NCBI RefSeq assembly: GCF_000003815.2
Contig: NC_049993.1
Span: forward strand, 6,178,183 to 6,242,182
DNA: 64,000 bases
Source: Branchiostoma floridae
Taxonomy: Eukaryota; Chordata; Leptocardii; Amphioxiformes; Branchiostomatidae
Direction of reading: 5' to 3'
The position numbers and the translations under genes are program-made. Position 1 is the stretch's first letter. Every line of letters begins with the position of its first letter. Positions 8,801 through 53,000 of the stretch are shown here, in pieces. The notes beneath the pieces were generated by a model, which did no database searches, was not told the DNA's origin, and worked only from the letters and a program-made list of their open reading frames with translations.

Positions 8801-11800
8801 ATGAACGGCTGCACGGATGCATGTTTTTAGCGGTGAGAAATTCCCTTTTAGCCAGCGGAACTGATCTCAAAAGTTAGATTGGTGAAAGCTTATTTGTAAC
8901 TGAAGAGATTAGCAGGTAAAGTTTTGCAGCCGCGCGCTAGGTAGGAGGTACACAGTCGTGGGTTCTGAGTGGTGCGGTTGTACAATAGCAGCGAAAAAGT
9001 GCCTTTTGTGGGAATTGACTAATCGTAGTTTGTAATTGCTATAAGAAAAGTTCCTACGTATAGTTTACATTTGCAATTTTTTCCCACGATATAGGGTAAA
9101 TGTGCTCGAAATAGAATGAAAAATCTACTGAAATTTCACTTAGCTTCATTATGAACGCGCCCATCTAAACCACGAATTATAACATAGAAGTCTATGGGAA
9201 GAAGAAACTCATCAATGAGACCTCAAGTTTCAAACTATGTCAAACTCAATGGATTATGTGGGAAAGGACAACCTTGAACCAACCGCATACACTTACCCCA
9301 CATCTTCAGAAAGGACGCCGGAGTCGCATAATCTCTAGCAACTGAACAATTTATACACAATGAATTTGGTTTGGTAGGCTGAATAAAAGTTCAGCTTTAA
9401 CTATGCAACTCCAGGTGTCTTACTGAGGGATGACTGCAGTGCAATAGATGTCAGTTAGCTGAATGAGTCCACTCTACTATATATGTCAAACTCAATACTT
9501 AGCAGGGTTGAACAAGTTTTCTAAAATCCACTTGTCCTATCGGGCAAGCACATAAAAAATGTACTTGCCCGAACCAATTTTTCACTTGCCCAAAATTCAA
9601 ATGTCACTGTTACTAGTATATGCATTTTCACTTCCAGCAATGGAATTCTCTGTAGACAATTGCTTGATGTCATGACTGTAAAAAGCAACAAGTATATCAA
9701 AATTGCACTAAAATCAATGGAAAAAATCTTACTTGCCCGATCGGACATGTTGGGTAGGACATGCACTTGCCCGAACAGCACTTTCACTTGCCCTGGACAA
9801 TAGGGCTAGTGGACTTGTTTATCCCTGCTTAGAGATAAGGTAACAAGCACTTCAGTCCTTCACAATGTCTTTCTGCCCTGTGATAGGTGGGTTTGCGAGG
9901 ACTTCCCCGAGCTGAAGCTGGCGATGGAGAACAATGTTCTCCTGGACTACGACACCAAGAGTTACGAGAGCATGAAGACCATCTGTGACAAGTACAACCG
10001 TGCCATCGACGCCACTCTGCAGCTGGTTAGGAAAACTATTCCACAAACATTACTTGACACTCGTTTTCGGATTAAACATTTTTAAAGAAAACTGAATACT
10101 TAGCCAAAAGCTTGAGTATTGAGTATGAGGAGGTTGTATGCACAGTTTCTGGTTATAATCAGATTAAGGTGCACAAATTTAATTTATTTCTCTTCAGAAT
10201 TTTAAGAAAACTTAATGCTAAACTGAAAGCTCAATATAGTGATGGAGGGGAATGTATTTTCCTTGTTATGCCCAGGTTTGGGGAGAGGGGTATGGTCCAA
10301 TTCAGATGTGGGTGACAGTTTGAATGTACATTTTGAAAATATAAACGCTAGTTCACCTTTATCCTTAGAGTATGATTTAAAGCAAGGGAGTTTATACACT
10401 ATTGACTTGATAAGTTGTGCATTAACCAATTGACTTCCAAGAAAAGAAAGTATACCAAGAAAACAATGGATAAGTGATTCAAAGAATGTTAAAAGTCATT
10501 ATCGCAGAGCAACATATGAGAATTTGTACAACTTGAATATCCATGTCATTTTACTACATCATATGTTTCAGTGTAAAAGTTTGATCATAACTTAATTTGA
10601 ATGCATGTAAAAAAAAAAGATTGGATTGTTTGTTGTTTTTGTTTTGATTTATTTTAATCCCCATTCGTTTCGTCACTGTTCACGCCAAGTGTTTCCGTGG
10701 TAACCAGGTGCGTGGCACCACGCGGCCGGCACAGCTGCAGACGCGCCCGTCCCGCGGCCTGCTCCGCCACATCCTGACCCAGGTCTACAACCACTCCATC
10801 GACAACCCCGACAGGCTCAACAACTACGAGCCTTTTTCTCCTGAGGTAAACTAACTGTTTATGCTTTGTGTTTTGCAACTGTCTATGTATTTTGTTAAAT
10901 AACTGTCAACATCAACAGGCTCAACAACTACGAGCCCTTTTCTCCTGAGGTAAACTAACTGTTTGTGCTTTGTGTTTTGTAACTGTCTATGTATTTTGTT
11001 GGTAAATAACTGTCAACATCGACAGGCTCAACAACTACGAGCTGTTCTCTCCAGAAGTAAACTTGTTTAAAATAACTGTCTGTTACGCCAATGAAGGTTA
11101 GACATCCAGGTAATAAGATATGGCCCAAAGCAGTTACTCAAGCAACTGGATATGATTTTGGAAACGGTAAGATGTGGAACCCAAATTCTCTTCAGCTTGA
11201 CTTCGTCTTACCTTTTTTCCTACTGGACAACAAAATGTCTTCAGCACTTTTGCATTCATAGTTAGGATATAAAAGACCAGTTCTCCCAGACCACTTCAGT
11301 GTCATTAACGGAAACTAGTGGATGCTAGTTGAAACGTCTGACCGTTTCCAAAATCATATCCAGTTGCTTGAGTAACTGCTTAATGGCGTAACTGTCTATG
11401 TATTTTGTAATTGTCTATGTATTTGTTCATGCATTTTGTAACTGTCTGTGTATTTTGTAATTGTGTATGTATTTTATAATTAGATAACTGTCTATGTATT
11501 TTGATAATTGTCTACCTATTTCATCTCAAGACATCGAGTTTGCCCCTTCACCTAATAAAAGTTAATTTCCAAAAGGTCCAAGAATAACGCTAGTTCAAAT
11601 TTATCCTTAGAGTATAAGTTAAAGCAAGGGGGTTTATACATACCTTATATCTGCTAGTAATGTGTTGTCCTACACCAGGCAAACACAGTACATTATGACC
11701 TTCATGTTTTAGGTAAATAAAGGTATGGGTATTGCCACTATAGCACATCTTTTACATCACTGAAGTTACTTTAGTCATGGTATATTGAAGTAATTCACCA

Positions 11801-50091: not shown

Positions 50092-53000
50092 CTGTTGGAA
50101 CAGAATCATACATGTCAAGAGCGAGAAAACCAGACATAAAAAAATGTAGTTTCACTACAACACATGCCTACAATATAATGTAACCCGTGATTCTTCTGAT
50201 TTGTCACTATTATAATAATGGGCCCCCTCCCCACTCACCTGGCAGTGCAAGTAAGGACAGATGATACTCTGTAACCCTGTGATCTTTTAGCCTGGTATCC
50301 AGCTGTGTTGTTAGCCTGGTATACAGCCGTATGATGCAAAAGACTCGGGAGCTATAATAATATTATAGCTCCCGAGTCTTTTGCATTTGAAGAGAGGACA
50401 GATGAGACTCAGGAGCTATAAAACATGGCTGGATACCAGGCTACTTATTCTTCTTATTTTGTCACTAAAAATGCACCCCCCTCCCCTCTCACCTGGCAGT
50501 GGAAGGACTGATGATACTCTGCAGCCCTGTCTGTTCCCTACTCACCTGGCAGTGTAAGGACTGATGATGCTCTGCAGCCCTGTCTGTTCCCTACTCACCT
50601 GGCAGTGTAAGGACTGATGAAACTCTGCAGCCCTGTCTGTTCCCTACTCACCTGGCAGTGTAAGGACTGATGAAACTCTGCAGCCCTGTCTGTTCCCTAC
50701 TCACCTGGCAGTGTAAGGACTGATGATACTCTGCAGCCCTGTCTGTTCCCTACTCACCTGGCAGTGTAAGGACTGATGATACTCTGCAGCCCTGTCTGTT
50801 CCCTACTCACCTGGCAGTGTAAGGACTGATAATACTCTGCAGCCCTGTCTGTTCCCTACTCACCTGGCAGTGTAAGGACTGATGATACTCTGCAGCCCTG
50901 TCTGTTCCCTACTCACCTGGCAGTGTAAGGACTGATGAAACTCTGCAGCCCTGTCTGTTCCCTACTCACCTGGCAGTGTAAGGACTGATGAAACTCTGCA
51001 GCCCTGTCTGTTCCCTACTCACCTGGCAGTGTAAGGACTGATGATACTCTGCAGCCCTGTCTGTTCCCTACTCACCTGGCAGTGGAAGGACTGATGATAC
51101 TCTGCAGCCCTGTCTGTTCCCTACTCACCTGGCAGTGTAAGGACTGATAATACTCTGCAGCCCTGTCTGTTCCCTACTCACCTGGCAGTGTAAGGACTGA
51201 TGATGCTCTGCAGCCCTGTCTGTTCCCTACTCACCTGGCAGTGTAAGGACTGATGATGCTCTGCAGCCCTGTCTGTTCCCTACTCACCTGGCAGTGTAAG
51301 AACTGATAATACTCTGCAGCCCTGTCTGTTCCCTACTCACCTGGCAGTGTAAGGACTGATAATACTCTGCAGCCCTGTCTGTTCCCTACTCACCTGGCAG
51401 TGTAAGGACTGATAATACTCTGCAGCCCTGTCTGTTCCCTACTCACCTGGCAGTGTAAGGACTGATGATGCTCTGCAGCCCTGTCTGTTCCCTACTCACC
51501 TAGCAGTGTAAGGACTGATGATACTCTGCAGCCCTGTCTGTTCCCTACTCACCTGGCAGTGTAAGGACTGATGATGCTCTGCAGCCCTGTCTGTTCCCTA
51601 CTCACCTAGCAGTGTAAGGACTGATGATACTCTGCAGCCCTGTCTGTTCCCTACTCACCTGGCAGTGTAAGGACTGATGATACTCTGCAGCCCTGTCTGT
51701 TCCCTACTCACCTGGCAGTGTAAGGACTGATGATGCTGCAGCCCTGTCTGTTCCCTACTCACCTGGCAGTGTAAGGACTGATGATGCTCTGCAGCCCTGT
51801 CTGTTCCCTACTCACCTGGCAGTGTAAGGACTGATGATACTCTGCAGCCCTGTCTGTTCCCTACTCACCTGGCAGTGTAAGGACTGATGATACTCTGCAG
51901 CNNNNNNNNNNNNNNNNNNNNNNNNNNNNNNNNNNNNNNNNNNNNNNNNNNNNNNNNNNNNNNNNNNNNNNNNNNNNNNNNNNNNNNNNNNNNNNNNNNN
52001 NCAGTGTAAGGACTGATGATGCTCTGCAGCCCTGTCTGTTCCCTACTCACCTGGCAGTGTAAGGACTGATGATGCTCTGCAGCCCTGTCTGTTCCCTACT
52101 CACCTGGCAGTGTAAGAACTGATAATACTCTGCAGCCCTGTCTGTTCCCTACTCACCTGGCAGTGTAAGGACTGATAATACTCTGCAGCCCTGTCTGTTC
52201 CCTACTCACCTGGCAGTGTAAGGACTGATAATACTCTGCAGCCCTGTCTGTTCCCTACTCACCTGGCAGTGTAAGGACTGATGATGCTCTGCAGCCCTGT
52301 CTGTTCCCTACTCACCTAGCAGTGTAAGGACTGATGATACTCTGCAGCCCTGTCTGTTCCCTACTCACCTGGCAGTGTAAGGACTGATGATGCTCTGCAG
52401 CCCTGTCTGTTCCCTACTCACCTAGCAGTGTAAGGACTGATGATACTCTGCAGCCCTGTCTGTTCCCTACTCACCTGGCAGTGTAAGGACTGATGATACT
52501 CTGCAGCCCTGTCTGTTCCCTACTCACCTGGCAGTGTAAGGACTGATGATGCTGCAGCCCTGTCTGTTCCCTACTCACCTGGCAGTGTAAGGACTGATGA
52601 TGCTCTGCAGCCCTGTCTGTTCCCTACTCACCTGGCAGTGTAAGGACTGATGATACTCTGCAGCCCTGTCTGTTCCCTACTCACCTGGCAGTGTAAGGAC
52701 TGATGATACTCTGCAGCCCTGTCTGTTCCCTACTCACCTGGCAGTGTAAGGACTGATGATGCTCTGCAGCCCTGTCTGTTCCCTACTCACCTGGCAGTGT
52801 AAGGACTGATGATACTCTGCAGCCCTGTCTGTTCCCTACTCACCTGGCAGTGTAAGGACTGATGATACTCTGCAGCCCTGTCTGTTCGTCCGTCCCCACC
52901 AGCCTGTTCAGGAAGGTGCGTGGCTGCTGCCCCTGTGCCTTCACCGTGTGCGCCCGGCTCTGGAACCGGTCCAGGATGCGGAAGTCGCCGGCCGACCTTG

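Follow-up and report, generated by a model that had tools for sequence, protein, structure and literature searches.

Donor-crossing tandem arrays in the amphioxus genes DOT1L and KAT14 are probable 'mirage' minisatellites

The 64,000-nucleotide stretch of Branchiostoma floridae DNA analysed here (the window; positions 6178183-6242182 of one contig in one assembly) contains four tandem repeats whose unit joins the end of an exon to the start of the following intron, two in the gene DOT1L and two in KAT14. These are, with good confidence, amphioxus 'mirage' minisatellites, formed by local tandem duplication and tolerated through an intact exon-proximal donor (5' splice site), with donors perhaps somewhat over-seeded. 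What can be seen directly is that a short segment of exon end plus intron start was duplicated in tandem, and that at one KAT14 donor this took place in at least two rounds. The original prediction of four separate repeats is borne out, as all are present with unrelated units of 104, 164, 53 and 30 bp. The exons and arrays, in window positions, are as follows.

10708..10845, plus strand: DOT1L exon 4, ending ...NNYEPFSPE; first donor GT at 10846 (sequence, PDB alignment to human DOT1L)
10811..11063, plus strand: donor-crossing tandem array of DOT1L exon 4 (Tandem Repeats Finder, TRF: period 104, 2.4 copies; repeat families D11/D12)
26441..26572, plus strand: DOT1L 'exon 20', ending ...EADNNKK; first donor GT at 26573 (frame and splice signals)
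26516..26759, plus strand: donor-crossing duplication of 'exon 20', 2 copies at 164 bp spacing (repeat family D14)
52844..53142, minus strand: KAT14 exon MKRERG...SPYTA(R); first donor GT at 52843 (fish KAT14 P0001)
50484..52887, minus strand: donor-crossing 53-bp array of KAT14, with an N gap at 51902-52001 (TRF, sequence, unit table)
50223..50280, minus strand: outlying, more diverged copy of the 53-bp exon end and donor (repeat families D3/D4, sequence)
48155..48287, minus strand: KAT14 GNAT-domain exon ending ...MMYHLIQ; first donor GT at 48154 (Pfam Acetyltransf_1; P0001)
47880..48176, minus strand: donor-crossing 30-bp array of KAT14 (TRF, 9.9 copies; translation)

In 4/4 arrays the unit spans the exon-intron boundary, the true end of the exon lies in the first copy, and the sequences are mutually unrelated. 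The exon end is fixed by homology in three of the four (DOT1L exon 4 and both KAT14 arrays). The GT is preserved in all copies read in every array, those in the N gap lying outside view. In three arrays the units carry conserved coding codons, which sets them apart from ordinary intronic minisatellites with a wholly non-coding unit. No acceptor-crossing family was seen in the window among the 20 of 29 repeat families listed, the exons being placed without systematic mapping.

The KAT14 introns are positioned by the fish homologue P0001, in which SPYTARILKPYI and YHLIQTCMGKD span the sites of the two introns and therefore place both at the first donors. When the first donor is taken, the conserved protein is continuous over both introns, the next exons in the window being VLKPYI (50087, minus strand) and TCMGKD (47396, minus strand). 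The exact start of the GNAT-domain exon is ambiguous (CAGGCAG), and its peptide gave no PDB match. No stop codon interrupts the frame anywhere in the 30-bp array, which reads (MMYHLIQVRH)n, so that splicing from a later donor would add 10 residues to the GNAT domain for every unit included. The 53-bp array holds more than 40 assembled copies, which the script split into 16 pieces before the N gap and 27 after it, end pieces included. The outlying, diverged copy lies about 250 bp past this array, and we therefore conclude that the donor was duplicated in at least two rounds, the earlier one larger (about 250 bp). A run of 12 consecutive unit variants recurs identically on both flanks of the N gap, which suggests an unmerged assembly overlap, and the copy number may thus be overstated. 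Whether the unit of both KAT14 arrays includes exactly 9 nt of intron, as predicted, is a question of where its boundaries are set; compared by eye with the flanking sequence, the intronic part is about 7-8 nt in the 30-bp unit and 9-11 nt in the 53-bp unit, for which the scripted analysis of the joints gave 11.

For DOT1L exon 4, the alignment to human DOT1L found in the PDB search extends to the last residue of the query peptide, for which no fitting Pfam family was found, and the following exon, VYGETSF, begins at 11821. The third copy of this array retains the GT and has A instead of G as the last exon base. 'Exon 20' consists of 44 open codons, from CCTTCAG to AAAAAG/GTCAGG. Because its peptide has no PDB match, it is defined by reading frame and splice signals only. 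Its two copies (26516-26595 and 26680-26759) are 95% identical and were not called by TRF. A 166-bp TRF array at 38493-39046 was tried as the fourth donor array and rejected in favour of the D14 duplication. Both it and a further DOT1L array at 32180-32472, whose end lies some 20 nt upstream of a probable acceptor, are read as intronic.

The original prediction was right that 'mirage' minisatellites occur in amphioxus, as two papers describe (PMC3087553 and PMC3902484). The first of these cites the Adh3 mirages of Canestro et al. 2002 and describes mirages at both 5' and 3' boundaries of the globins BflGb6 and BflGb9 (Ebner et al. 2010), supported by RT-PCR (reverse transcription polymerase chain reaction). 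The second describes 60-bp and 108-bp repeats that coincide with or overlap 5' and 3' splice sites of one gene, lancelet PGBD5; its authors connect them to mirages, cite the Adh and troponin C cases and mention re-sequencing. Like the Adh3 and globin mirages, the present repeats lie over exon-intron boundaries; they differ in being found in new genes (DOT1L, KAT14 and other loci), in having one unit of 164 bp and in being known from sequence evidence alone. From the PGBD5 repeats they differ in the gene, and the PGBD5 copy numbers are reported to vary between assemblies (PMC3902484). The DOT1L and KAT14 arrays thus extend the list of an already known amphioxus kind.

Related arrangements have been described elsewhere. 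In amphioxus VCBP3, exon-sequence copies, some with canonical splice sites, likewise lie in neighbouring introns, but the part of PMC2632668 consulted calls them complete or partial exons (data not shown there), not minisatellites. Intron gain by tandem duplication, as in potato RdRp (PMC4974935) and in the model of intron gain from mirages (PMC3087553), shares a duplication that includes splice signals, whereas the copies in the window lie past the donor of an existing intron, with no new intron shown. Among titles and abstract starts of the open-licence literature no genome-wide survey of such arrays was found, and a huntingtin paper, in its accessible part, only mentions tandem repeats in the assembly.

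An assembly artefact, in which the copies would come from misassembled haplotypes, could draw on the identical 12-variant runs around the N gap of the 53-bp array. Such an origin can hardly be entertained for four unrelated arrays with internal variants and more loci in the same genome, and it also conflicts with the published amphioxus cases, including the globin RT-PCR and the PGBD5 re-sequencing mentioned in PMC3087553 and PMC3902484.

The genome of 513 Mb (431 contigs) was scanned for donor words repeated three times with spacing, in comparison with the reversed pattern as control; exons were called by eye and not blind. Loci were counted rather than raw matches, because dispersed families with 51-bp and 47-bp subrepeats fill the match lists and make raw counts weak. 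The 10-base donor word CAGGTGAGTC gave 37 matches versus 0 reversed, all listed, at 8 loci, and by eye a coding frame ends at the donor in 8/8 (L032, L081-L087). Homology was found for two of these, a glycine receptor (L084) and TRPM (L087); searches with L081, L082, L083, L085 and L086 turned up no notable Pfam family, L032 being left out of this search. A codon score, with the threshold at the 95% level of 21,344 GT positions, is passed by L081, L082, L083, L086 and L087; L032 and L085 score weakly, and L084 fails it. The 9-base word CAGGTRAGT gave 1972 matches versus 5 reversed, the first number being raised by overlaps between matches and by a dispersed family. In contig C1 it marks 7 array loci outside that family and 6 that belong to it or resemble it, and 4/7 are exonic by eye, two in dynein genes (L029, L030) and two by frame (L031, L032).

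For AAGGTRAGT there were 54 matches versus 14 reversed, all listed, at 16 loci, which form 13 independent sets after pooling of L043, L044 and L047 (shared unit, the first two without exon) and of L045 with L046. By eye 9/13 sets are exonic, with matches in Pfam or the PDB for 8 of the 9: TDG; PDS5, BACK and I-set above the Pfam cut-off; adh_short just under it; and weak matches to sulfotransferase, C1 and CCDC138. The remaining one (L052) has no Pfam or PDB match. Dropped before the counts were L036, a two-copy donor array with exon outside the triple list, and L037 and L038, with an exon or possible exon on the opposite strand. In a 200-kb sample of contig C1 (29,706 bases N) TRF returned 34 rows of period at least 10, including two possible mirages with a donor-like site (L009:1611-1737, minus strand, and L028:4800-4899), too few for a rate.

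Further donor-crossing cases were thus met on many contigs of the same genome in this partial scan, in line with the earlier suggestion that the process is widespread. The special tie to conserved chromatin genes suggested along with it is not supported, as the loci include dynein, TRPM, glycine-receptor and short-chain dehydrogenase genes as well as TDG, PDS5, aldolase and phosphatidylserine-synthase genes.

A baseline was taken from single sites. Single CAGGTRAGT sites number 15,134 versus 7,039 reversed, so that about half appear real by excess. Among 20 sampled from the start of C1, two (L098, L101) proved to be arrays and were removed, leaving n = 18, of which 7 are exonic by eye. The first of the two, at C1:685051-685299, is another donor-crossing array, with an exon ending ...VPFYLATSPIPS; it is presumably lipin-like, with no Pfam match. 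Array donors with CAG are exonic in 11/14 cases versus 7/18 singles (Fisher one-sided p = 0.028), and on the codon score 8/14 pass versus 4/18 (one-sided p = 0.049). Single CAGGTGAGTC sites number 1,221 versus 553 reversed, which leaves an estimated 620 or so real donors after subtraction of about 50 array copies; 8 of these carry arrays (about 1.3%), whereas none of the roughly 553 non-donor sites does (p = 0.008, the split being estimated from the reversed count). In the window itself 0.93 donor-crossing units are expected by chance and 4 are seen, P(>=4) = 0.015, or 0.006-0.026 for expectations of 0.7-1.1, assuming 45 donors, 1320 bp of summed unit length and a hand list of 15 local duplications; judged after the fact, this excess is suggestive. 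Arrays may start at donors somewhat more often than expected under neutral placement, and if the excess over single sites is upheld, tolerance alone is insufficient. The earlier argument that chance would not favour donors is moderately supported by the 11/14 versus 7/18 comparison, but the support slips to p = 0.055 (8/18 singles) if L103 is counted as exonic, a single site open in all frames that passes the codon score and is not exonic by eye.

Several observations weigh against our reading. The samples are small and their exons were called by eye. No exon was seen at three of the seven C1 loci (L033-L035) or in 4/13 AAGGTRAGT sets, and the piece read for L083 starts inside the array, with the first donor out of view. 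The AAGGTRAGT sets are exonic by eye in 9/13 cases versus 7/18 CAG singles (p = 0.096), and on the codon score 4/13 pass (L040, L042, L049, L052) versus 4/18 singles (p = 0.45), L040 having been called non-exonic by eye; four arrays with homology fail the score (L084, L053, L041, L054). The reversed control fails for single AAGGTRAGT sites (11,396 forward versus 12,407 reversed), and for this reason no rate is given for AAG donors. Use of the exon-proximal donor, finally, is something we infer from the continuity of the protein. The donor excess is weakened by the codon scores of the AAG sets and by L103, which makes the notion of donors as hot spots slightly less likely. A scrambled-tail control, CAGGTRTGA repeated three times, gave 189 matches versus 73 reversed, and CAGGTG-rich arrays therefore exist without a donor consensus.

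Pure survivorship would account for such figures if duplications were random, those in exon interiors were lost, intronic ones were unremarkable, and donor-crossing ones were noticed for their coding content. We consider this a strong competitor, if a little short of an even chance. It is favoured by the agreement of AAG arrays with singles on the codon score, by the nearly one donor-crossing unit expected by chance in the window and by the acceptors (10/26 arrays exonic versus 8.8 expected, see below), but it does not readily explain why 8/8 CAGGTGAGTC and 11/14 CAG array donors are exonic by eye versus 7/18 singles, nor the CAGGTGAGTC arrays on about 620 donors and on none of the non-donor words, the split being an estimate.

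The acceptor-like word TTTTNCAGG repeated three times gave 100 matches versus 12 reversed, all listed, at 26 loci, two of them with a common unit, and pieces of 26/26 were read. Among the 26 there are 8 clear exon starts and 2 probable ones (L060, L064), and the existence of acceptor arrays is a further point against our reading. Of the clear ones, WAPL, phosphatidylserine synthase, aldolase and inscuteable are above the Pfam cut-off; L056 has a weak Pfam match to TRIM, L074 matches kexin and furin, and L055 and L070 have no Pfam match. The real share of TTTTNCAGG sites is roughly 34%, (38528-25523)/38528, at which 8.8/26 arrays would be exonic by chance, so acceptors show no excess. Such arrays are not confined to donors, since acceptor-crossing ones occur in this genome and in the published amphioxus cases. 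Per real site, acceptor-crossing arrays look rarer than donor-crossing ones, with estimated rates of about 8/620 CAGGTGAGTC donors versus about 10/13,005 excess TTTTNCAGG acceptors (odds ratio 17, denominators rough). The genome-wide comparison of donors and acceptors proposed earlier, run here in part, thus points towards donors, but modestly and with rough denominators.

This difference in rate is what might be expected if donors were mutational hot spots, whether through R-loops, polymerase pausing or base pairing between the donor hexamer and a donor-like stretch in the exon, an explanation that we find possible though improbable. Several repeat joints also fall inside the donor hexamer or immediately after it and seem to have 2-5 nt in common with the exon site (L041, L047, L049, L052, L081, L084, L087; by eye and without a null). 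The joints were read by eye because, for several of the 26 rows, the script settled on an incorrect period or a multiple of it (among them L030, L036, L051, L052 and the 30-bp array of KAT14). The rate, however, is built on a single donor word, and selection against extra upstream acceptors would yield the same asymmetry. That 5' splice sites are true duplication hot spots, with arrays at about 1% of real sites for one strong word, more than ten times the acceptor rate and in excess of identical non-donor words, accordingly seems doubtful to us. If it were true, exon ends would themselves provoke or attract duplication, and decoy donors would arise steadily, together with sequence from which new exons and introns could be made.

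Hairpins within the unit (for instance CAGGTG...CACCTG) might instead drive expansion, with the donor incidental, as 7/14 CAG array units contain both CACCTG and CAGGTG by eye, all three non-exonic ones included. Folding of 10 units as DNA (4 with CACCTG) gave z from -1.46 to 1.70, 8/10 above zero, with no excess stability, and we have rejected this explanation as very improbable.

For mirage minisatellites, as we take the window arrays to be, the first copy would be made by short microhomology or replication slippage, and unequal exchange or slippage would then enlarge the array. The first copy would retain the original exon and donor, the use of which would give the normal protein, and the other copies would be decoy donors within the intron. 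With the exon-proximal donor intact, a donor array would be tolerated, unlike an array in the interior of a coding exon. Should the donor excess be upheld, this genome provides a natural series in which duplicated donors range from two copies to dozens and in which the choice of the exon-proximal donor by the spliceosome among near-identical ones becomes testable, as does the question of whether splice sites provoke local duplication feeding intron and exon gain.

Two dispersed families were observed during the scan. One is an element with subrepeats of about 51 bp, each with a donor-like CAGGTRAGTAAGG and an acceptor-like tract, which can occur in opposite orientations in one locus (C1:29239706-29241320, C1:20224899-20226505 and others); it resembles what we take to be a foldback-type element. 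The second has 47-bp subrepeats (CAGCTGAGTGGGTACTGCATGCA...), for example at C8:7577691-7578827 and C10:12758214-12758786, and its word CAGCTRAGT repeated three times gave 192 matches versus 1 reversed, the places being taken from the 100 of 192 matches listed.

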